This document shows positions 32,872-53,115 of a stretch of 64,000 nucleotides of DNA, in pieces. This stretch comes from Gammaproteobacteria bacterium (GTDB lineage Bacteria > Pseudomonadota > Gammaproteobacteria > S012-40), in contig JAOUMY010000001.1 in the NCBI GenBank assembly GCA_029881255.1, positions 62,001 to 126,000 on the forward strand, given 5' to 3'. A program made the position numbers and the translations under genes. How positions within the stretch are numbered: position 1 is the first letter of the stretch; each line of letters begins with the position of its first letter. A model generated the notes under the pieces. That model ran no database searches and was not told the origin of the DNA. It worked only from the letters and a program-made list of their open reading frames with translations.

Positions 32872-34698
32872 CTATTCACCAGACGACTTGAGCAAAGGGA
32901 TAATGGAGGTATTTGATTGTTGGGCCAAAGGCCCAACAACTGCGTAACGAGGAGGTTTGTCGGCTTTGCTATCGGCGCCATATTCAGGCAAGATAAAAAA
33001 GAACGTACTTCCGTTTCCTCGCACCGAAAAATAGTCTATTTCGCCATCGTGTGCCCGAACAACACTTTTGCAGATGTAGAGTCCTAAACCTGTCCCGCTA
33101 CGACTACGTGAATCAGACGAATCCGCCTGAGAGAATCGCTGAAATATACGCTTGCGGTACTCTACCGGCACGCCTACGCCGTTGTCACTCACTGAGACCT
33201 TGATGCGGTTCTTCTCGTGTGTACGTGCGTCGATAATAACAACGCCACCCTCAGAAGAAAATTTCACCGCATTACTGATCAGATTGGAAATGACTTGGAT
33301 GAGACGCTCTTTATCGCCCTTCACCCACAAAGCCTTACTTCCCAACACCACATCCAGTGAAATATTGCTTGCACCAGCCATACTCTCGTTTAACAGCGCG
33401 GCCTCTTTTACCAGTTCACGCAGGTCAAGCCTTGTGAAATTTAAGCTCACGCCACCGGCTTCCATTTTTTGAATATCCAGTAAATCGTTTATGAGAACTT
33501 GCAGGCGGTCTGCATTCCGTTGGGCAACGGATACCATATCGACGACTTCGGAATTTAGCGTTTCACCAAACACGCCATGAATGATTGACAACGATCCGAC
33601 AATAGAGGTCAAAGGTGTGCGTAACTCATGGTTCAGAGTGGAAATAAATTCGTCCTTTTGTTTTTCGATCATTTTTTTCTGTGAAATATCTTTCAAAATC
33701 AGCGTATACATACGCTTTCCCGAAATTGAAAACTCCGTCAATGCGATTTCCGCCGGAAAAACTCTTTCACCACTGCGTACGGCATCACCATCAAAAGCGG
33801 CAAACCGGTTACTAGGCGCACCGACCCAACCGAGATCGCCACCTGTTTCCATTTGCAAGGCGCCAGGCGTCAGCCTTGGGACAATGCTTTCAATCGGACA
33901 ATTGGAAAACTCTTTGCTGTTATATCCCAACACAAGTTCTGCCGCTGGGTTCCAGAATTCAATTACGCCTTTCTCGTTAAAACTGATTACAACATCTGCC
34001 ACACTATTCATAATCAGCTGCAGATAGTCTCGATTCCGTATCAGCTCATCGAATTGATCGTTGATCGTGTGTTTCATATCATCGAAGGATTTTACCAGCG
34101 TCTGAAATTCTTCATATGGATCGCTGACGACGGGCTTGGTATCTCCATGTATGGAGAAAGAAGACGCCATATCTGTTAACCATTGAAATGGTTTCTGCAA
34201 TACGAAGCGCATGAACACCACGGAGAATAAAACCGTCACCGCTATCATCAAAGAATTGGAGACCAGATATGGCCACAGATATTTATAAACCAGCTTATCA
34301 CGATACGCTTCGTCGGCTTGTAGCGTCACGCGTCCAATAAATCGTTCTTTGAAATATATATCTCGAGACATGACATAAGGACCACTCAACTGATCCCCTG
34401 CACTATTGTATATCCTATTGTCATTGTGATCGGTAACCACGATCGCGCGAATAAACTCATTTTTAACATAGGCATCGCAGACCAGCGAAATGGCGTTTTC
34501 GTCGAAATTCCACAAAGGCGTGGCCAAAACCTGTGTCAACGCCTGAACGATATCGGTAGAGTGATTGGCAATATCTTGCTCAGCATCTTTAGCTGAAAAA
34601 TAGAGACTAACACTGGCGATGAGTATAACTGCCGCCAACAACAGCAGGAATAAGCTCAATACATAGGTTCGGATTATAGAACGGCGTCCAGATTTCAT
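32872..34698 (-). CDS. Sensor histidine kinase with PAS domain
   Basis: 608 residues from the ATG at 34698; a TTG four codons upstream is possible. Two membrane segments (about 12-35 and 148-172) enclose a periplasmic domain of about 110 residues. A HAMP-like linker is followed by a PAS domain (about 225-350, MNSVADVVISFNEKGVIEFW). HisKA has TLNHELRTPLTSIVGSLSII and HATPase_c has SNLISNAVKF, DNGVGVP and GTGLGLYICKSV. The PAS domain may sense a second, cytoplasmic signal. It starts 52 bp after the stop of a solute-binding protein gene on the same strand, suggesting that protein delivers its periplasmic signal. Confidence 0.92.
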   Translation of the reverse strand: MKSGRRSIIRTYVLSLFLLLLAAVILIASVSLYFSAKDAEQDIANHSTDIVQALTQVLATPLWNFDENAISLVCDAYVKNEFIRAIVVTDHNDNRIYNSAGDQLSGPYVMSRDIYFKERFIGRVTLQADEAYRDKLVYKYLWPYLVSNSLMIAVTVLFSVVFMRFVLQKPFQWLTDMASSFSIHGDTKPVVSDPYEEFQTLVKSFDDMKHTINDQFDELIRNRDYLQLIMNSVADVVISFNEKGVIEFWNPAAELVLGYNSKEFSNCPIESIVPRLTPGALQMETGGDLGWVGAPSNRFAAFDGDAVRSGERVFPAEIALTEFSISGKRMYTLILKDISQKKMIEKQKDEFISTLNHELRTPLTSIVGSLSIIHGVFGETLNSEVVDMVSVAQRNADRLQVLINDLLDIQKMEAGGVSLNFTRLDLRELVKEAALLNESMAGASNISLDVVLGSKALWVKGDKERLIQVISNLISNAVKFSSEGGVVIIDARTHEKNRIKVSVSDNGVGVPVEYRKRIFQRFSQADSSDSRSRSGTGLGLYICKSVVRAHDGEIDYFSVRGNGSTFFFILPEYGADSKADKPPRYAVVGPLAQQSNTSIIPLLKSSGE

Positions 34699-34750
34699 AT
34701 AGGTTCTCAAATACGCAGAAAGCCATTCTGTCTTTTATATTTGCGCTAAA

Positions 34751-35530
34751 TCAATTGATTGATGCGGTTATCCTGTCCAATGTACCGTCATCACGCATTT
34801 TCGTCAGAACGCGATCCACTTCGTCCTTCATTTTTATCGCTCGCCCTTTTTTCGACAATGCGATAAAAAACTCCCCTGTTGCTATCGGCTTAACAGCATG
34901 ACTTATTTTGCCCCTAAATTCCGGGTATTGATCTTCCAAATATATGGCTGTACTACGATTCAGTATCACCAGATCGACCCTGCCAGCTAAAAGCTTTTTC
35001 ACATTAAGGATATCATCTGCGGTCACTTCAAAAGTGATTTCGTGTTGTTTCGCTGCCTCATTGAATTCGCCATAGTTGAAACCGCGAACACCGGCCACGG
35101 TATAGTCTTTTAAATCCTGCCACTGGTTCCAGTCTATGAGTTTGAATCTGTCTTTAGCGTAATAAAGGAGCTGAGGATCACTCAGTGAAATACTGGAATA
35201 TGCCATATAGGCTTCACGCTCCGGCGTTTTTTTCACCATTAACAGCACATCACTCTCACCGGATTCCATCTGACGCAAACATCGTTCATAGGGATAGATT
35301 GCATATTCAGCAGACACAGCCATGCGCTGAAATAGTTCTTTAGCCACATCAAATGCCCATCCACCACCTGGCGCTTCTCCCTCTTTGCCTATCGTCCAGG
35401 GCACCCAGGGATCGGCGGATACGCGCACTGTCTCAGATTCAGCGTGACACACGCTATGGGCAAACATGAAAAATAGTAAGGAATAAATCCGATTTAAAGA
35501 GGTGGCCGTGCGTGATATGTCGTTTTTCAT
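34751..35530 (-). CDS. Family 3 extracellular solute-binding protein
   Basis: 259 residues from the ATG at 35530. A signal peptide ends near SVCHA, then a type II periplasmic binding fold: VRVSADPWVPWTIG, GGGWAFDVAKELFQRM, YAIYPYERCLRQMESGESDV, VDLVILNRSTAIY and a C-terminal MRDDGTLDRI. Such proteins bind amino acids or similar small molecules. No ABC permease genes are present. The next gene is a membrane histidine kinase, so it more likely works in sensing than in uptake. Confidence 0.87.
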   Translation of the reverse strand: MKNDISRTATSLNRIYSLLFFMFAHSVCHAESETVRVSADPWVPWTIGKEGEAPGGGWAFDVAKELFQRMAVSAEYAIYPYERCLRQMESGESDVLLMVKKTPEREAYMAYSSISLSDPQLLYYAKDRFKLIDWNQWQDLKDYTVAGVRGFNYGEFNEAAKQHEITFEVTADDILNVKKLLAGRVDLVILNRSTAIYLEDQYPEFRGKISHAVKPIATGEFFIALSKKGRAIKMKDEVDRVLTKMRDDGTLDRITASIN

Positions 35531-35987
35531 TTCGACGTTATCCTGTGGAAGCGAACCCGTATATTTCACCGCTTTGAATGGTAAAATATTGTCGAGTCAA
35601 GTATTTCAGGCTGCGATACCTTGGTCAAGACCTATACAGGGGCAGACTCTGCGGAAAATTTCATACCAAGACGTATGATGCGCTAATCGGCACACTTGGA
35701 TTGCTGATATTCCAATGTTTGCGGTCAGACAAACACTCACCACAAATGCGGCGTGGATAATCAGCCATTGTTATTTCACTCAGCAGCGACTCGCCCTTTT
35801 CCATACAAAATGCGATTTTTCTCCACGCCCGCGCAAGCAATTGATATTGTTGTGTAGTCCGCTAACGCTCCTTTTCAGGCAATATTTTTCTTTGAAAGCT
35901 GTTTATATATACAGTACCATTTCTACCCGGCAATCATACAGGCAGCAGCTGGTCCGGGCATCCGATTTCTACACAAGCAGCCGAACT
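35531..35987. other. Intergenic region upstream of dnaE2
   Basis: 457 bases between divergent genes. An in-frame extension of dnaE2 runs back to 35715, but it lacks polymerase-like sequence and spans the LexA box, so it is treated as non-coding. Apart from the LexA box at 35899 nothing was recognised. Confidence 0.5.
35899..35914 (+). promoter_or_regulatory. LexA (SOS) box upstream of dnaE2
   Basis: CTGTTTATATATACAG matches the gammaproteobacterial LexA consensus CTGT-N8-ACAG exactly in both half-sites, with the typical alternating AT core. It lies 73 bp before the dnaE2 ATG, where a repressor would block transcription until DNA damage. Confidence 0.9.
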
Positions 35988-41421: not shown

Positions 41422-42852
41422 CTAATCGAGATTCTTTCCTCGCGTGGATTCCAGATAGGCGCCTAACTCCCAGTCCTGAAAGTGTTTGGAAATATCCGCC
41501 TCTGCCTGTATCTTACCTGCATTAGCCAGAGCAATTCTTTGCGTCAATCTCGCCTGCTTACTCAGTCCACGTAGACTTTCAAACACTTCGCCTGACATAT
41601 AGTTCAGCCGATGCTCGATAGCGCGATTGCGTATAGCTTCGTCTATTTCAGCTGCGGCAATCTGATCAAAGTCCAGCGCATCACTGGCGATGGTAAAACG
41701 CCACTTACTCCAGAATGAAGGCACAAACGCAGCATATGAACACACGTGTTCAAAACTCAAAGACAGTTCCCGGTGTACATGCCAGTCGTCATTGAGGTCC
41801 ACGTCATTCAATTCCATGCTCTGCACAACAACAATGCCACCAGGATTTAGATTGTGCGTCTTGAGAAAGGTATAAAACTCCTGCGTATATAAGGCCTGCG
41901 CCGGACCCTCCTCTATTGCGTCTACGACATCAATAACGATGATATCGAATTTTTCATCGGTATTTTTCAGATACTTGTAGCCATCTTCAAACCTTAGTTC
42001 GACTTTAGGGTGATCAAACGCACCACGATGATGGGTATACAGATGAGATTTACAGAGTTGTATCAGCTCTTCGTCAAGATCGATTAACACCACTCGCTCG
42101 ACGCTCGGATGATAAAGAATCTCCCGCGCACTGGCCCCTTCTCCCGCGCCAATCACCAACACACTTTTAGGCTGGGCGTGAGATAGCATTGCCGGTTGTA
42201 TCAAACTTTCGTGATAGATATGTTCATCTTTTTGCGCGGATTGAACGAAACCGTCAAGGAATAATACTTTACCATACGCATAGGTATCCAGGATGGCGTA
42301 ACTCTGAAATGAGGTTTCTCCCGCTGCAATAACTTCTTTTATCTTGAAGTGATGACGTTCACCGGCGTTATCGTATTCATATACCCAATCCGGATGATTT
42401 CTGCCGGGAATCAATGGAAACTCTGATAAATTTCGGGCAACAACTCGCTCATCTGCTTTGGAATCTTCATCTGCGCAGGCTTCAATGTATTCATGCCTGC
42501 CAGCCCGGAAAGAATGACTAAGCCTGTCGACAAAATGCCGTATTTTGTCGTCTGCTCCTAGAAGAATAAAACTGACATTCACCTGTTGCGTGTCAGGCAT
42601 TATCATCACGCTGATCTGCCCTTCTTCCAGAGTGATAACGCCAGAAATAATATTGTTTAATTCATTTGACTCAAGATGAATATCAACGCAATTCAGATCT
42701 GATGCCGTCGCAGCGCTAACAAACACTGTTGGTAGCTGTTGGCGATTTGTATAAAACGGGTAGTCACATTGAAAAAGCGCTAAAAATGACTGACTTGCCG
42801 TTAACTGCAAACCGGATTTCTGATAAATGGATAAGCTTTGAGTAATGTGCAT
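41422..42852 (-). CDS. Aminopropyltransferase (spermidine synthase-like) fused to degenerate AdoMetDC-like domain
   Basis: 476 residues with GGAGGGAAC just before the ATG. The C-terminal two thirds (about 155-440) form a polyamine aminopropyltransferase: LDGFVQSAQKDEHIYHESLI, the nucleotide loop VLVIGAGEGASAREIL and the catalytic-loop Asp in IDVVDAIEEGPAQALYTQEF. It would transfer an aminopropyl group from decarboxylated AdoMet to an amine. Residues 1-135 resemble short bacterial AdoMet decarboxylases (SpeD), but the pyruvoyl-forming Ser, the catalytic His and the catalytic Cys positions hold Gly78, Met83 and Leu98. It faces divergently from the amine oxidase and exporter genes. Confidence 0.87.
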   Translation of the reverse strand: MHITQSLSIYQKSGLQLTASQSFLALFQCDYPFYTNRQQLPTVFVSAATASDLNCVDIHLESNELNNIISGVITLEEGQISVMIMPDTQQVNVSFILLGADDKIRHFVDRLSHSFRAGRHEYIEACADEDSKADERVVARNLSEFPLIPGRNHPDWVYEYDNAGERHHFKIKEVIAAGETSFQSYAILDTYAYGKVLFLDGFVQSAQKDEHIYHESLIQPAMLSHAQPKSVLVIGAGEGASAREILYHPSVERVVLIDLDEELIQLCKSHLYTHHRGAFDHPKVELRFEDGYKYLKNTDEKFDIIVIDVVDAIEEGPAQALYTQEFYTFLKTHNLNPGGIVVVQSMELNDVDLNDDWHVHRELSLSFEHVCSYAAFVPSFWSKWRFTIASDALDFDQIAAAEIDEAIRNRAIEHRLNYMSGEVFESLRGLSKQARLTQRIALANAGKIQAEADISKHFQDWELGAYLESTRGKNLD

Positions 42853-43181
42853 TGTTCCCTCCGTTCGATTCAGACCGAATGTCGTGGAGAGTATTTAGAG
42901 TAGCGATATGACAAGCCGCCTGATCTGGCGACAAAACGCTGTTAACAGCAGAGCTAGCCTAATTGATCGATTAAAATTGCTGAATCAGAATCATAAGAAA
43001 AGGATGCATTACTTCCCTGCATGTTGTTTCTATTCCCCACATTTCGACTTATTTGCTAAATAATTGTTGTGATTTTCTTTTAGCGTAATCTATGTTCTAC
43101 TAGAAACCAATAACAAGTCAATAGAACTTTTTTATTCTGGCTAATATAAAAACAATATAACTCAATCGGCAGAGGCCTGAA
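42853..43181. other. Divergent control region of the polyamine-type cluster
   Basis: 329 AT-rich bases between the aminopropyltransferase (minus) and the amine oxidase (plus). Both promoters should lie here. No element stood out clearly enough to name. Confidence 0.4.
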
Positions 43182-44468
43182 GTGAATATCATTGTTGTGG
43201 GAGCGGGAATAAGCGGATTGTATGCATCATTTTTATTACAGCAATCCGGCCATCAAGTCACCGTATTGGAAGCCGCTACGCGTAGTGGCGGACGTATTTT
43301 GTCTATTCACGATCGTGACGGCGGACGTATCGAACTCGGTGCGGAACTCGCTTATGCACCCGAATCCCGTTATATGCAGATGCTATCCCATCTCGGCGTC
43401 GGCGTTCGTCAACAAAGTGGCGACAGCTATTTTATTCTGGATGGTGAATTACATAAACGAGGCTTGAAACAGGACAACACGCTAAATCATTTGCTAGACA
43501 CACTGGACTCGATAGAAGAGACCGCGCCTACTTCATTCAACGATATCTCTGTAAAAACCTTTTTTCAGCGACTGCAGTTCTATCCACTCTATCCTCGCGT
43601 TATCGAGGCATTTTGTTGTGAGTATGGCGCCAGCGCGGCACATCTTGGAATACGCCAACTGGCGGAGGAAGAAGGCGCATGGAAAGGTGGCGATGAGGAA
43701 TTTTTCTGTGATCAGCCTATGATACGTATTGTGGAATTTCTGGAACAACAACTACTCGCACCAATACAATTTTCAAAACAGGTGAAGCACATTGAATATG
43801 AAAGTGGAGTGAAGATATACACTACGGAAGGCGAATGCTATGACGCCGACATCGCCTTGATTTCAGTCGGACTCGGCATATTGAAATCCGACACACTCAG
43901 TTTCTCACCACCACTACCACAAGAAACTCGGAATGCTATCGCATGCATGGGCATACAGCCGGGCATCAAAGTCATACTGAATTTCAAACACCCCTGGTGG
44001 CCACAGCATTTACTGACGATTGAGGGTGGAACCATGTGCTATGAATACCTGGCCTCCGCATATACCAGAAAGCCCACATTGACCGCATTTATTATGGACG
44101 AACAGGCACGCGCAGTTTCCCATCTAACACAAGAGCAACTCATTGAATGCTTGCTGGGTGAATTGAAAAATATTGGCTCTCCTGTGAGCAGACCAGAGGA
44201 TCTTGATAGCTATTGCGTCAAAGACTGGGGGCGCGATCCCCTGCACCTGGGCGCCTATTCCTATCCAGCAGTGGGCAGTAGTGGCGCAAGAACCACACTC
44301 AGTAAACCCGTTAATAAACAGATCTACTTTATCGGAGAGGCATGCAACCAAAACGGCCATGCAGCAACCATACATGGCGCGATGGAGACCGCAGAATTTG
44401 CGGTGAACCATATCAACGCGCTCAATAACAATTCATCGACAACAAGAAAAGATACGCTAACGGTTTAA
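43182..44468 (+). CDS. FAD-dependent amine oxidase
   Basis: 428 residues from a GTG start with GAGG upstream. The N-terminal FAD-binding fold reads MNIIVVGAGISGLYASFLLQ followed by VTVLEAATRSGGRI. The C-terminal FAD motif is YFIGEACNQNGHAATIHGAM, typical of flavin monoamine/polyamine oxidases. It lies two bases before an ABC exporter gene and next to two aminopropyltransferase genes, so an aminopropylated amine is a likely substrate. It has no signal peptide, so it is cytoplasmic. Confidence 0.92.
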   Translation: MNIIVVGAGISGLYASFLLQQSGHQVTVLEAATRSGGRILSIHDRDGGRIELGAELAYAPESRYMQMLSHLGVGVRQQSGDSYFILDGELHKRGLKQDNTLNHLLDTLDSIEETAPTSFNDISVKTFFQRLQFYPLYPRVIEAFCCEYGASAAHLGIRQLAEEEGAWKGGDEEFFCDQPMIRIVEFLEQQLLAPIQFSKQVKHIEYESGVKIYTTEGECYDADIALISVGLGILKSDTLSFSPPLPQETRNAIACMGIQPGIKVILNFKHPWWPQHLLTIEGGTMCYEYLASAYTRKPTLTAFIMDEQARAVSHLTQEQLIECLLGELKNIGSPVSRPEDLDSYCVKDWGRDPLHLGAYSYPAVGSSGARTTLSKPVNKQIYFIGEACNQNGHAATIHGAMETAEFAVNHINALNNNSSTTRKDTLTV

Positions 44469-44470
44469 TC

Positions 44471-46300
44471 ATGGCCAGACGGTCCGGCAATATACTCTTT
44501 CTCTGGATATTCAAGAACTCCTTCGGATTTCTCGGACCGCTACTGCTCGCGGCAACCGTCGTCACTATTTGCGAATTATCGATACCGTGGATATTGGAAC
44601 AAGTCATTGATGAAGCCATTTCCGATGACGTCGACATGAGCATAGTCAACCTGTTTGGTCTGTTGATGCTAGGCATAATTGTGCTGTTATACCTAGTCCA
44701 CCATGTTTATTTACGTTATGAAATAAAATTGGTATGTAATACCAGCTTTCAAATCTATCGCCAGTTCTATTCTCACATCCTGGCGCAACCGCTGTCTTAC
44801 TTCAAACGCAAGCGTAGTGGCGAGATATTGCACCGTGTGATGAATGACACCGCCGAGTTTGAACAAAATGCCCGCTATCTCTTATCAGATCTTCCCTATG
44901 AAATTATGATTGTTGTCGGGACTTTGATCATGATGATTTTTCTCGATCCGTGGCTGGCCTTTTTCGTATTCATATTTCTGGTCGCCACCTCGATCGTTTC
45001 CACCAAAATCGGACGCCCCTTGCCCGTACTGGAACGTCGGGTGCAAATGCTTGGCGCACGTTTTAGTAACCGTTTACAGGAAATCATTAACGGTATACGC
45101 ACCGTAAAGACCTTCGGTAACGAAATGTTCGAGCAGCAGACCCTCGACGCGGCAAATCGCAAACGTGCCGACATACAACAAACCTCAGGAAAAATTGAAG
45201 CCTGGTTGCTACCACTCTTCGAACTCATGGAAACACTCGGCGTAATCCTCGTGGTGTGGTATGGGGCCCATTTAATTTTTCAGGACAAACTCACTCCCGG
45301 CGGACTAGTCGCATTTATTGCCTATATGGAAATACTAGCAGTCCCCGTCAGTCGCGCAGGTAAATACTATCGACACTGGCTTGAGGCCAGCGCCATGGCC
45401 GATCGTATTGTCGACTTTTTGCGCGATACCGATGACAAGGAAAACCTGTCGTCAATTAGTTGGGAGCATCCCAATCAACACATGATTAAAACAATACAAT
45501 TCGACAATGTCAGCTTTACCTATCCGCGAACCGAAGGCCCTGTATTACACGATATACAGTTTTCCGTACAACAAGGGGAAATTGTATCGCTGGTGGGTCG
45601 AAACGGCTCCGGTAAAAGCACGACCATGGATTTGCTACAGGGATTCTATTTACCTGATACAGGCAAAATTCTCGCCGACGGTCAGAATATACATGACATG
45701 GAAATCAGTCTGTGGCGGCAGCGGGTAGGGGTGATGTCTCAAGAGGTATTTTTATTCAATACCAGTATCCGCGACAATATTCTGTATGGCGTCAAGAACG
45801 CAAGCGAGGCGCAATTAATGCTGGCCTGCCATCACGCCGGTCTGACGTCGTTAATTCAATCCTTGCCCAAAGGATTGAATACACGCGTCGGAGAAAAGGG
45901 CGGACGCTTTTCAGGCGGACAGCGGCAACGCATCGCCCTGGCCAGGCTCTATCTGATCAATCCGGCTGTCATCATTTACGATGAACCAACAGCCGCGCTA
46001 GATGGCGAAGCGGCAAAAGATGTTGCCCTGCGTATCCGTCGATTTGGTCGTGACCGCATATCCATTGTAATCGCCCACCAGGCGGAAATGGTTGCCGTCG
46101 CCGATCGCATTATTCTGCTGGATAAAGGACGAATTCATGCTCAAGGTAGTCACGACGAACTTTTTCAAAATGAACTGCTCTATCGCCGGCTATTCGCGTC
46201 CATTGAACACCGAGAGGAATTTGAACAACTCAGTCGTGAGTTTTCCTCATCCGGAATCTTCACCCAATCACATTTGAAAAATCTCACTGAGACCAGCTAG
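44471..46300 (+). CDS. ABC exporter (fused permease and ATPase)
   Basis: 609 residues. The membrane domain (about 10-320) has six hydrophobic segments and the exporter-type coupling sequence FSNRLQEIINGIRTVKTFGN. The nucleotide-binding domain (about 345-585) has Walker A LVGRNGSGKSTTMDLL, Q-loop QEVFLFNTSIRDNI, signature FSGGQRQRIALARLYL, Walker B AVIIYDEPTAALDG and the H-loop VIAHQAEM. Half-size exporters of this type act as dimers and expel lipids, peptides or small natural products. It is coupled to the amine oxidase gene (two-base gap), so its cargo may be a polyamine-derived product. Confidence 0.95.
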   Translation: MARRSGNILFLWIFKNSFGFLGPLLLAATVVTICELSIPWILEQVIDEAISDDVDMSIVNLFGLLMLGIIVLLYLVHHVYLRYEIKLVCNTSFQIYRQFYSHILAQPLSYFKRKRSGEILHRVMNDTAEFEQNARYLLSDLPYEIMIVVGTLIMMIFLDPWLAFFVFIFLVATSIVSTKIGRPLPVLERRVQMLGARFSNRLQEIINGIRTVKTFGNEMFEQQTLDAANRKRADIQQTSGKIEAWLLPLFELMETLGVILVVWYGAHLIFQDKLTPGGLVAFIAYMEILAVPVSRAGKYYRHWLEASAMADRIVDFLRDTDDKENLSSISWEHPNQHMIKTIQFDNVSFTYPRTEGPVLHDIQFSVQQGEIVSLVGRNGSGKSTTMDLLQGFYLPDTGKILADGQNIHDMEISLWRQRVGVMSQEVFLFNTSIRDNILYGVKNASEAQLMLACHHAGLTSLIQSLPKGLNTRVGEKGGRFSGGQRQRIALARLYLINPAVIIYDEPTAALDGEAAKDVALRIRRFGRDRISIVIAHQAEMVAVADRIILLDKGRIHAQGSHDELFQNELLYRRLFASIEHREEFEQLSREFSSSGIFTQSHLKNLTETS

Positions 46301-47247
46301 ACCGAACAACCTACGCCTTCAAGCAATTGATGCACGCCCTGAGAAAAGAAACGGTCTTCAATCGACTTCACCTCATCGTCTTCTATTGCCATGCGCACGT
46401 CGCGCGGCAAAGACATCATATGGCGAAAAGTCATGCCATCGAAGAAACGAAGGCGCTCTTTCAATTTTCTTGCCTCCAAAACATTGTCGATGACCTCTTC
46501 ACTGATTAATTTACAATGACTGACATCGCTGGCGGCCACAAATCCCCACTGTGCCGCAAAAGAAGGTATGAAACTGGTGTAGGCATTCGCGTAGGTAAAG
46601 ACCTTATTCAAACCGTGCAGCACGGTTGCCAAGTCCGTCGTATCCCCCGGCGTCGCACTCATCGCCTGATAAGCCACGATTCCTTTTAATTCAAGAATAC
46701 GTTTTAATGCTGTGAAAAATCGTTTTTGAAAAAATTCAATACTTCGAGATGTCTTGTTGATTCCGTCGCAGACATCCAGAATGATGACATCAAATATTTC
46801 TGTACTGTCGTATACGTAATCCAGGCCATTCTGTACGATGAGTTCCAATCGGGTATCGGAAAACGCCCCATCATGCCACTCGCTCAAATAGCGTTCACAC
46901 AATTCAATTAGCAAGCCGTCGATATCGACCATCACGACTTTTTCTACGCAGGAATGCTTTAATACCTCTCTTGCCGTAGCACCCTCACCACCACCAATGA
47001 TGAGGACATTCCTGGGATTCGCATGGGCGCACATCGCAGGATGAACCAGTGACTCGTGATAGCGATACTCATCAGACTCCACTGACTGAATCAACCCGTC
47101 AAGCAAGAGCATTTTGCCGTATTGCCGAGTCTCGTAAATAGAAACTTGTTGAAAAGGCGTTTTGCCATCATAAAGGCATTTTTTTATCCTGATTTTTTGC
47201 AAAACATCATCTGAACCCGACTCGTAATGAAATGACACAGAATCCAT
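46297..47247 (-). CDS. Second aminopropyltransferase-like (spermidine synthase-like) protein
   Basis: 316 residues from the ATG at 47247 with GGGGAGA upstream; the frame extends further back. The spermidine synthase fold is clear: LLDGLIQSVESDEYRYHESL, VLIIGGGEGATAREVLKH, the nucleotide-binding acidic end VVMVDIDGLLIELCERYL and a catalytic-loop Asp in IILDVCDGIN. The GPA..L segment usual after that Asp is replaced by KTSRS, which may change acceptor choice. It converges on the ABC exporter gene (overlapping stops) and is the second such enzyme in the cluster. It lacks the N-terminal domain found on the enzyme at 41422. Confidence 0.88.
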   Translation of the reverse strand: MDSVSFHYESGSDDVLQKIRIKKCLYDGKTPFQQVSIYETRQYGKMLLLDGLIQSVESDEYRYHESLVHPAMCAHANPRNVLIIGGGEGATAREVLKHSCVEKVVMVDIDGLLIELCERYLSEWHDGAFSDTRLELIVQNGLDYVYDSTEIFDVIILDVCDGINKTSRSIEFFQKRFFTALKRILELKGIVAYQAMSATPGDTTDLATVLHGLNKVFTYANAYTSFIPSFAAQWGFVAASDVSHCKLISEEVIDNVLEARKLKERLRFFDGMTFRHMMSLPRDVRMAIEDDEVKSIEDRFFSQGVHQLLEGVGCSV

Positions 47248-47606
47248 TGTATTTCTCCCCACTATACGTTTCCATGTTATTGTTAGCTTCAATTATTATG
47301 TTAGGAAGGATATCTTATACCAAGTGCGCGACTCAAATAATGAACAAATTGGAGACGAAGCAAGTTTCAGTATAGCCAGACTTACACTTCGACTCCAGCT
47401 GATACAGGCATAGTTACTGCACAGCCCCAAAGATAAGGATGTAATTATTGTACCTGGTTATCTTTCGCTCGAAGAGCTCAGTCAAAATACTTTTTAAATA
47501 CCGTATTGTCTCTACCTATATTGAAGAAACTAATAGTAAAATGGTTTAATCTCTCATAAGTAGCTTATTTGAGACTATCATCTATCCAACGTAAACGATC
47601 ACCTTG
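47248..47606. other. Intergenic region, divergent promoters
   Basis: 359 AT-rich bases between the second aminopropyltransferase and the hybrid kinase. No confident promoter, RNA or repeat was seen. Confidence 0.35.
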
Positions 47607-49763
47607 ATGACGGCGGCTATAGACAACAACAGCGAAAGTAACCTGCAGGCAAGGATAGAGCAGGAGCAGGTCAAAGCGCTCTATGACAACCTGAACCTGA
47701 CCGCCATCATTTCCGTCATCAATGCGGCGATATTGGCCTTTGTCGTTTGGGAGGAAACCGATCGTCAAACATTGCTGATATGGTTAAGCGTAACCCAGGG
47801 CTTAAGCGTTTTACGCCTTGCAGATCTATACCTCTACCGCTCGAAACAGATTAGACAGATTTCTCCTGCCTGGCGATTCAATCTGGGAACACTTTTTTCT
47901 GGCGTGTCGTGGGGGAGTAGCGCACTCTTGATCATCCCCAATGTTGCCATCGAATATCAATTATTCATCGCCCTGATTCTCGCTGGTAACTGTGCGGGTG
48001 CAGCCTCCACGTTTTCACATACCCGTACTGCCTTGTATGCCTTTATTGTGCCTATTACCGTTCCTTTTGTATTTCAATTCTTGCGAGGGGATACACAGAT
48101 TGAAATCGCCGTGGGAATATTGGGCGCTATATTTTTTGGCGCTATCAGTGCGGCTGGATTACGTAACTTTAGGAACACCAAACAGAATATTGAGCTCAAA
48201 CTCCAGGCGAACAGCCGGGAAAAATTGCTGGCCGCCAGCGAAGCCCGCTATCGCAGCCTGCTCAATAGCGCAGCTGACACCTTTCTGTTGCATGACAAAG
48301 AAGGCAGGATTTTAGACGTCAATAAAAGCGCCATCACCTCGCTTGGGTATAGTCGCGAAGAATTGCTGAACATGCGAATCAACGATATCGAGATCGGCAT
48401 TCAAAATGACATTTTACCTTCGACTTGGGCGACGCTTACGCAAGGTGACGCGGTAACCGTTTCAGGCCTGCATCGTAGAAAAGATGGAAGCACGCTTCCC
48501 GTCGAACTTAAGCTGACGCTAATTACTGAACAGGAAAAGCCTTTAATACTAGCACTTTCTCGCGATGTTACTGAGCGCAAACGTTACGAAGATGCCTTGA
48601 AGCAAGCACATGACGAAGCACAACAGGCGAGTCGCGCCAAGAGCGAATTCCTTTCACGCATGAGCCACGAGTTGAGAACCCCAATGAACATCATACTAGG
48701 GTTTGCGCAACTTCTGGAGTTGGAGGAACTTACCCATGAACAAAAGGAAAACATTCACGAAATCTTGAGGGCCGGCAATCACCTACTTGAACTAATCAAT
48801 GAAATTCTCGATTTGAGCCGTGTAGAGGCCGGCAAACTGTCTATATCGATAGAACCCGTATCGCTTAGCCTGACGATAGAAGATATCTTGCAAGCACTGG
48901 CGCCTCTGGTGGGTAACCAACTTATTACTCTGTCCCGCACCATTGACGGGGTTAAAACTCACTCTTTTATCGAATCGCAGGAAATTTACGTGTTGGCGGA
49001 CAAAACGCGGCTGCGCCAGGTAATATTTAATCTGCTTTCCAACGCCATCAAATACAACCAGGAAAACGGTCAAATCATCATTGACGTTACGTCATCCGAT
49101 ACCAGAGTGTGCATTTCAATCAGCGATTCAGGAAACGGTATTGCAAAACAAGATCTGCCCTCATTGTTCAAACCCTTCAACAGACTGAATGCGGAACATT
49201 CAAATATTGAAGGAACGGGTATCGGTTTAGTAATAACAAAAAGGTTGATTGAATTAATGCAGGGCGAGATTGGCGTCGAGAGTGAGGAAGGTAAGGGATC
49301 AACGTTCTGGTTTGAACTGCCACGATCAGATGCCGCCGAGGCGCATACCGATCAAACTAGCCGGAACTCCACATTCAATTCAAAGACACTACAGGGACGA
49401 ATACTTTACATCGATGACAACTCCCTCAATATATTTCTGGTCAGAAAATATCTAACGAAATTCTCCGACTTGGAGGTATTGTCTGCTGAGAACGCGCTGG
49501 AGGGTATAGAAAAGGCGACCAATAATAAACCGGATTTAATTCTGCTCGATATCAATCTACCGGAAATTAGTGGCTTCGAGGTTTTCAAACGCCTCAGGAA
49601 TATACCCGAAACGAAAGATATCCCCATCATCGCGCTCAGTGCCAATGCACTCCCGTCGCAAATTCAGAAAGCCATGGATTGCGGGTTCGATGACTATTTG
49701 ACCAAGCCCGTCGATCTCCTTTTGCTTGAAAAAACTTTAGAAAGAAAACTTCGTCACATGTAA
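47607..49763 (+). CDS. Hybrid sensor histidine kinase with receiver domain
   Basis: 718 residues from the ATG at 47607. The N-terminal 190 residues form six or seven hydrophobic segments, a MASE-like membrane sensor. A PAS domain follows (about 210-325, ILDVNKSAITSLGYSREELL). HisKA has [20 protein letters not shown] and HATPase_c has FNLLSNAIKYN, DSGNGI and EGTGIGLVITKRL. A C-terminal receiver (about 595-718) has the Asp in LILLDINLPEISG and the lysine in YLTKPVDL. The receiver suggests a phosphorelay to a separate Hpt protein. No partner is adjacent. Confidence 0.95.
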   Translation: MTAAIDNNSESNLQARIEQEQVKALYDNLNLTAIISVINAAILAFVVWEETDRQTLLIWLSVTQGLSVLRLADLYLYRSKQIRQISPAWRFNLGTLFSGVSWGSSALLIIPNVAIEYQLFIALILAGNCAGAASTFSHTRTALYAFIVPITVPFVFQFLRGDTQIEIAVGILGAIFFGAISAAGLRNFRNTKQNIELKLQANSREKLLAASEARYRSLLNSAADTFLLHDKEGRILDVNKSAITSLGYSREELLNMRINDIEIGIQNDILPSTWATLTQGDAVTVSGLHRRKDGSTLPVELKLTLITEQEKPLILALSRDVTERKRYEDALKQAHDEAQQASRAKSEFLSRMSHELRTPMNIILGFAQLLELEELTHEQKENIHEILRAGNHLLELINEILDLSRVEAGKLSISIEPVSLSLTIEDILQALAPLVGNQLITLSRTIDGVKTHSFIESQEIYVLADKTRLRQVIFNLLSNAIKYNQENGQIIIDVTSSDTRVCISISDSGNGIAKQDLPSLFKPFNRLNAEHSNIEGTGIGLVITKRLIELMQGEIGVESEEGKGSTFWFELPRSDAAEAHTDQTSRNSTFNSKTLQGRILYIDDNSLNIFLVRKYLTKFSDLEVLSAENALEGIEKATNNKPDLILLDINLPEISGFEVFKRLRNIPETKDIPIIALSANALPSQIQKAMDCGFDDYLTKPVDLLLLEKTLERKLRHM

Positions 49764-50823: not shown

Positions 50824-51092
50824 TAGTCCACCTGGAAATCGGAATATTCAACGGCGTTGATAGCCTGACAATCAATGTTCTTGACTTGCGCGGTAACAGG
50901 CCCCTGTCTCAACCAGTTCTGAAGTTTTTCGATATCTTCCTTCTCGCCACAGGCAATCACTTCCACATCACCATTGACAAGATTTTTAACCCTGCCGGTG
51001 ATCCCAAATGCCTGCGCTATACGCACGGTGGATTGCCGAAAAAACACGCCCTGCACTTTGCCTGACACGACGCATCGCACACACAGAATCAT
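50820..51092 (-). CDS. acyP: Acylphosphatase
   Basis: 90 residues, the normal size. The active-site signature SGKVQGVFFRQSTVRIAQ contains the phosphate-binding Arg, and GRVKNLVNGDVEVIACG contains the catalytic Asn. It hydrolyses acyl phosphates in the cytoplasm. The start codon overlaps the stop of the membrane-fusion protein gene (ATGA), making it the last gene of a five-gene operon. Confidence 0.95.
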   Translation of the reverse strand: MILCVRCVVSGKVQGVFFRQSTVRIAQAFGITGRVKNLVNGDVEVIACGEKEDIEKLQNWLRQGPVTAQVKNIDCQAINAVEYSDFQVDY

Positions 51093-51835
51093 GGCATGAC
51101 GATCTCCGCCTGCTCGCCTTGTCTCACCAGCGGCTGCTCATGTTCAAACTCAACACGCAGACGATAACGACCATCTTTATCAGGCTCAACATCTGTTGCT
51201 ATAGCCCTTGCTTTGTACATTTTTCCGTGAAACCTGACGGACACCTCAGAGACAGCTGGCACCACCTTCAAATCATCCAGAGACATGCGTTTTTCTGCAT
51301 AGGCAGGATTGAATTTCGCCAACACAAGCAACGGTGTCGCCTGCAATTCGCTAATCACTACCTGTCCTGGCGCCGCGCTTACACTGACGACAACGCCATC
51401 AAAAGGCGCACGCAATTCACTATACTGTACGGCAAGTTTTGCCTGCTCCAGTTCCGCATGCGCCGCTTCCAGTTTTGCGCGTGCACGCGCGGCAGCTGCC
51501 CGTGCCAGTTCGAGTTCATGATCAGACAACACGGTTCGATCATAGAGCTCTTGCGCGCGTCCCAGTTCTTTGTCGCCCTCCTGCTTGTCCAGCTGAGCAC
51601 TGTCGCGCAAGGCCTGCGCATGTTTTAAGGCGGTCTGAAATGTCTCGGGTTGCAGTCTTAGCAGTAAATCTCCTTTTTTCACCAGCGCGCCCGGTTTGCT
51701 CATTACGTCTGCCACGGCGCCGGAAACCAAGGGACTCAGCGTCACGCGTTCAGACCAGTTAATAGTGGCGGTGAACTCTTTCGCCAGACCAGGCACCGAT
51801 AGCAGCAATCCTAGCAAAGCCACGAATGTTTTCAC
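51089..51835 (-). CDS. Short efflux periplasmic adaptor (membrane-fusion protein)
   Basis: 248 residues, GTG start overlapping the TolC-like stop. A signal peptide (ending near GLAK) is followed by a lipoyl-like half (SGAVADVMSKPGALVKKGDL), an alpha hairpin (about 75-130, rich in Ala, Glu, Arg), the second lipoyl half ELRAPFDGVVVSVSAAPGQV and a beta barrel. It is shorter than RND adaptors and lacks the membrane-proximal domain. It would link an inner-membrane pump to the TolC-like protein, but no pump gene is present nearby. Confidence 0.9.
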   Translation of the reverse strand: MKTFVALLGLLLSVPGLAKEFTATINWSERVTLSPLVSGAVADVMSKPGALVKKGDLLLRLQPETFQTALKHAQALRDSAQLDKQEGDKELGRAQELYDRTVLSDHELELARAAAARARAKLEAAHAELEQAKLAVQYSELRAPFDGVVVSVSAAPGQVVISELQATPLLVLAKFNPAYAEKRMSLDDLKVVPAVSEVSVRFHGKMYKARAIATDVEPDKDGRYRLRVEFEHEQPLVRQGEQAEIVMP

Positions 51836-53115
51836 TTTACGACCTCCTCAACGGCACCACCTGTCAAAATGCGCAACTGTTCCCAGGCCAACGCCTGTCC
51901 ATAAATTGCTTTTGCGTATTCCCACTTGGCGTTAGTCAACTCAACCATCGCATCACCCAGATCTGTCTTGACTTCCATTTCGTATATTGCGCGAGCCCGG
52001 TCCAGATATAATTCACGATAATTCTCTTTGACGGATTTTTCTTTTTTTTCGTTTTCCAGATCTTTGAAACGCGACCACGTTTCCAACACCTGTTGATCCA
52101 GTAAACGCTCCATACGCAGAACCGAGGCTTCCAGACGAGCAATACTCGCCAGTTGCGCGGATTTTTTCGCACCGACTATTCCTCGCTTGTATATTGGCAC
52201 ATCCAATACCAAGCCCGCCCGCCAACGATCGTTGGAACCCATCTGTCGCTGATAGGCCCCCGCTGCCAGTTCGGCATTTATTTGAGGAAAGTATTCGGCA
52301 TTAATCGCGGCAAGCTTTGCCTTGGCCGATGCCAGTTCTGCTTTAAGTGCCCGTAATTGTAGATTACCGTCACGCGCCTGTTTTTGCAGGGTTTCGACTT
52401 CCGGTAACTTATGTCCCTTAAAGCCGATGGTCGGTGGTACTAGTTGCGATGGGATAGAATCGGGACGATTGAGTATCGACGCCAGTCGCGTACGCGTGAT
52501 ACGTTGCCGCATTTCGCTTTCCATGCGACTCCGAAATATGACTTGATATTCGCTCTCCGCTTTCAGCACATCTATTTCAGAATGCTGTCCCAGTTCCTGA
52601 CGCATGCGTAAACGGTCAAAGCGTATAAAACCGGTTGCCATATCTTCATTGTCACGCGCATATCGCAAGTCAGACAATATGACATCAAAGTATGCGGCCA
52701 TGATGTCGTGTCGACGTTGCAGCTGTGCGTGCTGCAAATACAATTGCTGCGCTTCCACAGACTGTGCGGCGGCGTCTACACGTCTGGCCGTTTTGCCAAA
52801 ATCATAAAGTGGCTTGTTCGCCTGCACCACCAATCGATGATCATCTCGGCCGAGACTCAACAGCGACTCCGGTGGCTCAACCCAACGCACATGTCCCTGG
52901 GCGGAAATATCAAGACCACTGCTCGAAGCCGCGAGACTCTCTTCCGCCTGCGCCTGTTCAACGGCAGCCTGCAACATCGCCATATCAGGGTGTAACTCCT
53001 GAGCAAAACTCAGTGCCTGGCTTAAGGTTAAAGGCTGCGGCAGATCCGATTCAGCATGCGCCGCGAAACTGGCTAACATCGTTAGCGCAGGAAATAATTT
53101 CATGATTGCAGACAA
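51832..53115 (-). CDS. TolC-family outer membrane efflux protein
   Basis: 427 residues from a TTG at 53115 with AAGGG upstream; an ATG at 53103 is also possible and gives the signal peptide MKLFPALTMLASFAAHAESD. Two long alpha-helical repeats typical of the family are visible (SQALSFAQELHPDMAMLQAA and LQKQARDGNLQLRALKAELA), with strand segments between. It would form the outer-membrane duct for the adaptor encoded next. It starts two bases after the stop of a thioredoxin-like gene. Confidence 0.9.
   Translation of the reverse strand: MSAIMKLFPALTMLASFAAHAESDLPQPLTLSQALSFAQELHPDMAMLQAAVEQAQAEESLAASSSGLDISAQGHVRWVEPPESLLSLGRDDHRLVVQANKPLYDFGKTARRVDAAAQSVEAQQLYLQHAQLQRRHDIMAAYFDVILSDLRYARDNEDMATGFIRFDRLRMRQELGQHSEIDVLKAESEYQVIFRSRMESEMRQRITRTRLASILNRPDSIPSQLVPPTIGFKGHKLPEVETLQKQARDGNLQLRALKAELASAKAKLAAINAEYFPQINAELAAGAYQRQMGSNDRWRAGLVLDVPIYKRGIVGAKKSAQLASIARLEASVLRMERLLDQQVLETWSRFKDLENEKKEKSVKENYRELYLDRARAIYEMEVKTDLGDAMVELTNAKWEYAKAIYGQALAWEQLRILTGGAVEEVVK

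Follow-up and report, generated by a model that had tools for sequence, protein, structure and literature searches.

A stretch of 64,000 nucleotides from a gammaproteobacterium (GCA_029881255.1, contig JAOUMY010000001.1, positions 62,001 to 126,000; hereafter the window) carries four adjacent genes, A to D, which on balance we take to form a locus dedicated to making and exporting a polyamine, derived from an ancestral speD-APT-ABC operon (APT, aminopropyltransferase). A bolder form of this reading, which we put forward tentatively, is that the exporter belongs to an undescribed half-size ABC family that is co-inherited with thermospermine-type APTs across phyla and secretes an unusual polyamine, and that the synthase has here been triplicated and has gained an inactive AdoMetDC domain like that of human spermine synthase, with an oxidase trimming the product prior to export. 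The preliminary description of this DNA had proposed a compound that is aminopropylated, then oxidised and exported; the comparative evidence set out below sustains the coupling of synthesis with export, but neither oxidation before export nor a special end product. The features of the locus are as follows, in window coordinates.

41422..42402, minus strand: A, APT domain (PF01564; best PDB match 1uir)
42403..42852, minus strand: A, N-terminal domain (aa 1-150), AdoMetDC class 1b fold with the catalytic residues gone
42853..43181: A-B intergenic region, divergent, 329 bp (no RNA element found with Rfam)
43182..44468, plus strand: B, FAD polyamine-oxidase-type amine oxidase, GTG start (PF01593)
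44471..46300, plus strand: C, half-size ABC exporter (PF00664 and PF00005)
46297..47247, minus strand: D, stand-alone APT with a rewritten acceptor loop, 162-178 (PF01564)
47604..49763, plus strand: hybrid PAS-histidine kinase-receiver, adjoining D and divergent from it

The four ORFs originally described were all recovered within 41422-47247, and B and C are indeed two bases apart, the stop of B ending at 44468 and the start of C lying at 44471. A is read on the minus strand divergently from B-C on the plus strand, while D, also on the minus strand, converges on C; the two meet tail to tail with an overlap of 4 bases, C ending at 46300 and D reaching to 46297. By layout the genes thus fall into three transcription units, A, B-C and D, and given these orientations only B-C is plausible as an operon; B and C are probably co-transcribed. 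It is uncertain whether the kinase gene at 47604-49763 is part of the module. Elsewhere in the window, genes for an HlyD-type membrane fusion protein and an outer membrane efflux protein with overlapping ends lie at 51089-53115 (minus strand), with no adjacent inner-membrane pump among the ORFs listed, and an apparent periplasmic amino-acid-type binding protein gene followed by a histidine kinase gene at 32872-35569 (minus strand) may encode a sensing pair.

The ordinary polyamine genes of this genome are located elsewhere. A canonical SpeE at C1:295.7k gave the top score (193.6 bits) of ten PF01564 matches in the genome, and a SpeD of class-1a length was found at C1:722.7k; the APTs of A and D are therefore extra, and a primary polyamine operon was ruled out, in keeping with the initial view that the locus does not serve primary polyamine metabolism. 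Against the NCBIfam model for polyamine aminopropyltransferase (PRK00811), A scored 234 and D 249 bits, below the cut-off of 260 bits, and by that rule neither is an ordinary SpeE. Besides SpeE and SpeD, the genome holds a third odd APT at C11:123.7k.

The principal evidence for a make-and-export locus came from a scan of genome contigs from 84,980 species, one genome each, in which the query was an APT alignment alone. The scan returned 80 loci, 77 of them with 2.5 kb or more of flanking sequence on one side, and a complete half-exporter was present at two of the 80 (L067 and L070), in both cases from the clade of C. Because only the APT served as query, the match of the ABC protein constitutes independent evidence of linkage. 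The top locus, L067, from a groundwater gammaproteobacterium, has the order speD (ESH intact), APT, ABC, response regulator and kinase, with the ends of the APT and ABC genes overlapping. Its APT is 47% identical to A, which no APT in the scan matched better, and its ABC protein shares 45% identity with C across 541 aa (491 bits), making it the closest known relative of C. At L070 (Elusimicrobia) and at L054 (a gammaproteobacterium, genome G337, found apart from the 80-locus scan) the order is speD, APT, two GNAT-like ORFs, ABC and a divergent SpeE-like protein; among these GNAT-like ORFs, Pfam confirmed the second of L054 alone. A separate canonical SpeE is also present in G756 and G337.

When the four APT-linked ABC proteins (C and those of L067, L070 and L054) were placed in a tree with 15 further half-exporters taken from these and related genomes, they formed one clade with an SH-aLRT of 100. 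The tie between APT and exporter that had been suggested from this one locus is thus recurrent and co-inherited, ABC proteins of the C clade adjoining APTs in four genomes and two phyla, the three loci other than that of the window all being from draft or metagenome assemblies. The APT and the C-type ABC protein are a functional pair passed on together. None of the other genomes searched contained the full set of four neighbouring genes. It had also been envisaged that the four genes might lie scattered in relatives, with ordinary functions. This was not what we observed: same-family genomes held no close relative of B, C-like ABC proteins were absent from several hundred sampled genomes, and a close relative of C, where present, adjoins an APT. 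An APT-ABC exporter operon was not described in the searchable literature, which included few subscription journals.

A sensor kinase, with or without a response regulator, lies beside all four APT-ABC loci (window 47604-49763; L067:12607-14639; L070:36-935; L054:5649-8200). The kinases are of differing types, and their candidacy as orthologous regulators was rejected, as they are unrelated beyond the general family. The divergent SpeE-like protein that ends each GNAT-type locus (L054:13276-14145 and L070:5526-6365) has the Asp pair of DxxD replaced (NDIEVM and NDIETA, respectively).

A encodes a protein of 476 aa with a Spermine_synth domain at 210-391 (PF01564, E 2e-38), a tetramerisation domain and, at 26-124, a weak match to AdoMet_dc, which reached 22.5 bits against Pfam and 25 bits in a second search. 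The first 150 residues, a dead AdoMetDC domain that the preliminary description did not contain, matched a profile built from SpeDs, most of which adjoin related APTs. Folding of this domain alone by AlphaFold2, using an alignment with 29 SpeDs, gave a model with a mean pLDDT of 82, and above 90 over most of the core, whose best Foldseek match was Thermotoga AdoMetDC (1tlu; E 5e-8, TM 0.63/0.79), a result that depends in part on the homology call as the alignment rows were themselves SpeDs. Residues 1-150 thus have the fold of a class 1b AdoMetDC but not its catalytic residues. Relative to active-type SpeDs, ESH has become EGQ (77-79), HTWPE has become MIMPD and TCG has become LLG, with replacement of the pyruvoyl-forming Ser by Gly and of the catalytic His and Cys by Gln/Met and Leu, respectively. 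By the established chemistry of AdoMetDC, a domain of this sequence cannot form the pyruvoyl cofactor, and A as an active bifunctional SpeD-SpeE was ruled out on the missing catalytic residues.

The APT domain of A retains motif 2 as GAGEG (Glu238), Asp308 and Asp311 and, in comparison with 98 APTs, a canonical acceptor loop, GPAQALYTQEFY; its best match in the PDB was the Thermus thermophilus aminopropyltransferase 1uir. The domain order of A is that of known AdoMetDC-APT fusions, which in Candidatus Pelagibacter are active and bifunctional (PMC11107197), and in human spermine synthase include an AdoMetDC domain that is inactive but essential, being needed for dimerisation (PMC12803844). The N-terminal domain of the human enzyme has lost its decarboxylase residues, as has that of A; since A groups with stand-alone APTs, the loss in A looks independent of that in human spermine synthase. 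A bacterial SpeD-APT fusion with ESH intact was seen at L055. A further apparent fusion at L101 was discarded, its upstream part being a wrong-frame artefact.

A and D had been called divergent, and they are only 37% identical, yet they fall in one clade with the C11 paralogue (L052:9563-10507; G000:C11:123.6-124.5 kb), which is sister to D. In a quick maximum-likelihood tree of 99 rows, support was 85 for A, D and the C11 paralogue, 90 for D with the C11 paralogue and 84 for the L067 APT as sister, so that support for the A/D clade is moderate (84-90, quick tree). Both A and D lie within a larger clade that includes T. thermophilus SpeE and a plant enzyme, and are nearest to Thermus-type and proteobacterial APTs, not to plant thermospermine synthase. 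Near-identical APTs of the wider clade occur in several rhizobia (Phyllobacterium and Rhizobium; L049, L082, L088 and L093), one of them plasmid-borne, with an AMP-binding protein upstream; in the annotated plasmid copy, the gene after the APT is hypothetical and its start overlaps.

Thermospermine synthases are usually marked by Glu in motif 2, whereas for bacterial spermine synthases the rule is an Asp in this motif and a Gly at the second residue after it (PMC11107197). The marks of thermospermine synthases, Glu in motif 2 and the DxxD pair, are both present in A and D, and A departs from the spermine synthase rule in having Glu238 followed by Gly239-Ala240. In contrast to the characterised bacterial spermine synthases, with their motif 2 Asp, A is a bacterial protein with Glu. 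The motif 2 Glu also occurs in the T. thermophilus APT, an enzyme known to act as N1-aminopropylagmatine synthase, so the mark is not exclusive and the product cannot be read from the sequence. With such thermospermine and N1-aminopropylagmatine synthases (1uir, 6bq2 and Pseudomonas aeruginosa SpeD2-SpeE2) the locus shares the APT domain, DxxD and the motif 2 Glu, and in its relatives a speD adjoining the APT; it differs from them in the dead AdoMetDC domain of A, the changed loop of D and the linked ABC exporter. Neighbouring APT pairs, with Glu in one motif 2 and Asp in the other, were seen on single contigs at five loci from several phyla (L084, L117, L122, L133 and L139) and may serve two-step tetraamine synthesis.

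B encodes a protein of 428 aa with an Amino_oxidase domain (PF01593, E 1e-44), which provides a Rossmann FAD domain, and the motif WGxxPxxxGAYSY. Its best PDB match was spermine oxidase (7oxl), followed by LSD1B and maize PAO (1b37), and its Lys263 aligns with the flavin-proximal Lys of spermine oxidase and LSD1B, a residue strictly conserved in polyamine oxidases (PMC7576179). B thus has both the FAD domain and the conserved Lys of an FAD polyamine oxidase. Relatives of B, about 30% identical, were found in eight other genomes of 369 sampled from the same class, and a close relative was absent from same-family genomes; no APT lay beside the three relatives whose wider surroundings were read. 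Oxidation as a step of a conserved pathway, as first proposed, was not borne out: no match to B was found in the genomes of the three other APT-ABC carriers (L067, L070 and L054), and a PAO-like gene adjoined none of the 80 nearest APT loci. Among the genomes searched, B is paired with an APT and ABC protein in the source genome only, and a role in the module is assigned to it by its position only. Another adjacency of amine oxidase and exporter was seen at L059:9869-14432 (G085), where a PAO-like oxidase lies directly 3' of an apparent RND efflux pump gene.

In a further reading, that of the preliminary description, the locus makes a polyamine-derived natural product, with A and D building the aminopropylated backbone, B converting it to an aldehyde or cyclic imine and C exporting the finished compound. 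All four catalytic and transport functions are found together with B directly upstream of C, the acceptor loop of D is changed, and the two related loci of L070 and L054 have GNATs and a divergent SpeE-like protein in place of B. However, the stretch examined showed no NRPS/PKS, ligase or other gene for a scaffold, and conservation of the APT-ABC pair does not extend to the oxidase; we consider this reading rather unlikely.

D, of 316 aa from an ATG at 47247 (PF01564, E 1e-42), has motif 2 as GGGEG (Glu88) and retains Asp158 and Asp161. An altered segment following the catalytic-loop Asp had been noticed earlier, and alignment with 98 other APTs confirmed it after the conserved D158. Within it, P168R, L172F and Y178F replace residues conserved in 91%, 100% and 92% of these proteins, and upstream D140N replaces an Asp conserved in 99%; the acceptor loop of D was unique among the APT rows compared. 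The C11 paralogue, the gene for which is convergent to that of a GGDEF-EAL protein, has motif 2 as GGADG (Asp), the loop DSGDRLVRRDFGRHLIS and Tyr in place of the invariant His of YHE (YYE). D and the C11 paralogue could be envisaged as regulatory partners of A that have themselves lost catalysis, after the model of the prozyme of trypanosome AdoMetDC. The loss from D of loop and position-140 residues conserved in 91-100% of 98 APTs would fit such a role, as would the loss of the YHE His from the C11 copy. Neither protein, however, has lost the conserved Asp (D158 in D) or the second Asp of DxxD, and D keeps GGGEG; dead partners appear improbable.

C is a protein of 609 aa with a single ABC_membrane domain and, after it, a single ABC_tran domain, and is thus a half-size ABC exporter, with a predicted type IV fold by homology. 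It shares the TMD-NBD half-transporter architecture of MsbA, Sav1866, BmrA and TAP/ABCB10, and differs from them in belonging to its own APT-linked clade and in four acidic membrane residues. These residues, E35, D140, E144 and E254, map to predicted membrane helices or their edges, and each position has an acid in every one of the four APT-linked ABC proteins, while 20 background exporters had at most two of the four and none had an acid at 254. They hint at a polycation substrate, and could also reflect common descent rather than selection for cations. In samples of 369, 398 and 96 genomes, the first two partly overlapping, the only C-like ABC proteins below E 1e-105 or 1e-95 were C and that of L067. 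The best half-exporter in 72,556 plasmids scored about 266 bits against C, compared with 491 bits for the L067 protein; plasmid APTs reached 47% identity, none with a C-type ABC, and no viral relatives of C or D were found.

A role in homeostasis or detoxification, in which B degrades and C expels excess polyamine with A and D as accessory spermidine or thermospermine synthases, would draw on the oxidase adjoining the exporter and probably being co-transcribed with it, and on the L054 and L070 GNATs, whose acetylation of polyamines could prepare them for excretion. Such a set would however have no need of two or three extra synthases, and the exporter is inherited with the synthase and not with the oxidase, leaving this role quite improbable. 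A general role of C in exporting drugs or lipids, with its place near an APT due to accident, is highly improbable, since even if Pfam and NCBIfam assign it to general half-exporter families only (MsbA-related and TAP-like), ABC proteins of the same clade adjoin APTs in four genomes of two phyla found with the APT as sole query.

The favoured reading, a dedicated make-and-export locus, would run as follows; homology of its parts, loss of the AdoMetDC catalytic residues from A, duplication of the APT and the evolutionary tie between the APT and ABC clades are established by the comparisons above, and the chemistry and transport are inferred. An ancestral speD-APT-ABC operon would have made a polyamine and then exported it; in this lineage the APT would have been triplicated, one copy becoming fused to a dead SpeD and D acquiring a new acceptor pocket, and the oxidase gene would have been inserted ahead of that of the exporter. 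Because the decarboxylase domain of A cannot form the pyruvoyl group, dcAdoMet would be supplied by the separate SpeD of the genome, and the dead domain would probably have a part in dimerisation or in regulation, like its counterpart in human spermine synthase. A and D would aminopropylate a diamine or triamine, with the motif 2 Glu favouring thermospermine-type chemistry and the changed loop of D pointing to a different acceptor. Should B act on this product, it would trim it oxidatively, for example from thermospermine to norspermidine, and a homodimer of C with an acid-lined cavity would export the polycation. The product is probably of the thermospermine/norspermidine type. Thermospermine or, after B, norspermidine is plausible by analogy, because a two-step route of thermospermine synthase and polyamine oxidase yields norspermidine when reconstituted in E. 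coli (PMC11531321). That hybrid pathway combines a thermospermine-type APT with an FAD oxidase, for which A or D and B would be a candidate pair; its genes came from an alga and a plant, whereas here the candidate genes are neighbours in one bacterium, together with an exporter.

Polyamines are usually regarded as intracellular, and a synthase and exporter that travel together would give a genetic handle on polyamine secretion in bacteria. A thermospermine oxidase outside plants is still awaiting identification (PMC11531321), and an MsbA/TAP-type ABC exporter dedicated to polyamines was not found in the literature searched; the loci described here provide candidates for both, in the former case a bacterial one. 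The dead AdoMetDC domain of A, in turn, offers a bacterial parallel to the corresponding domain of human spermine synthase.
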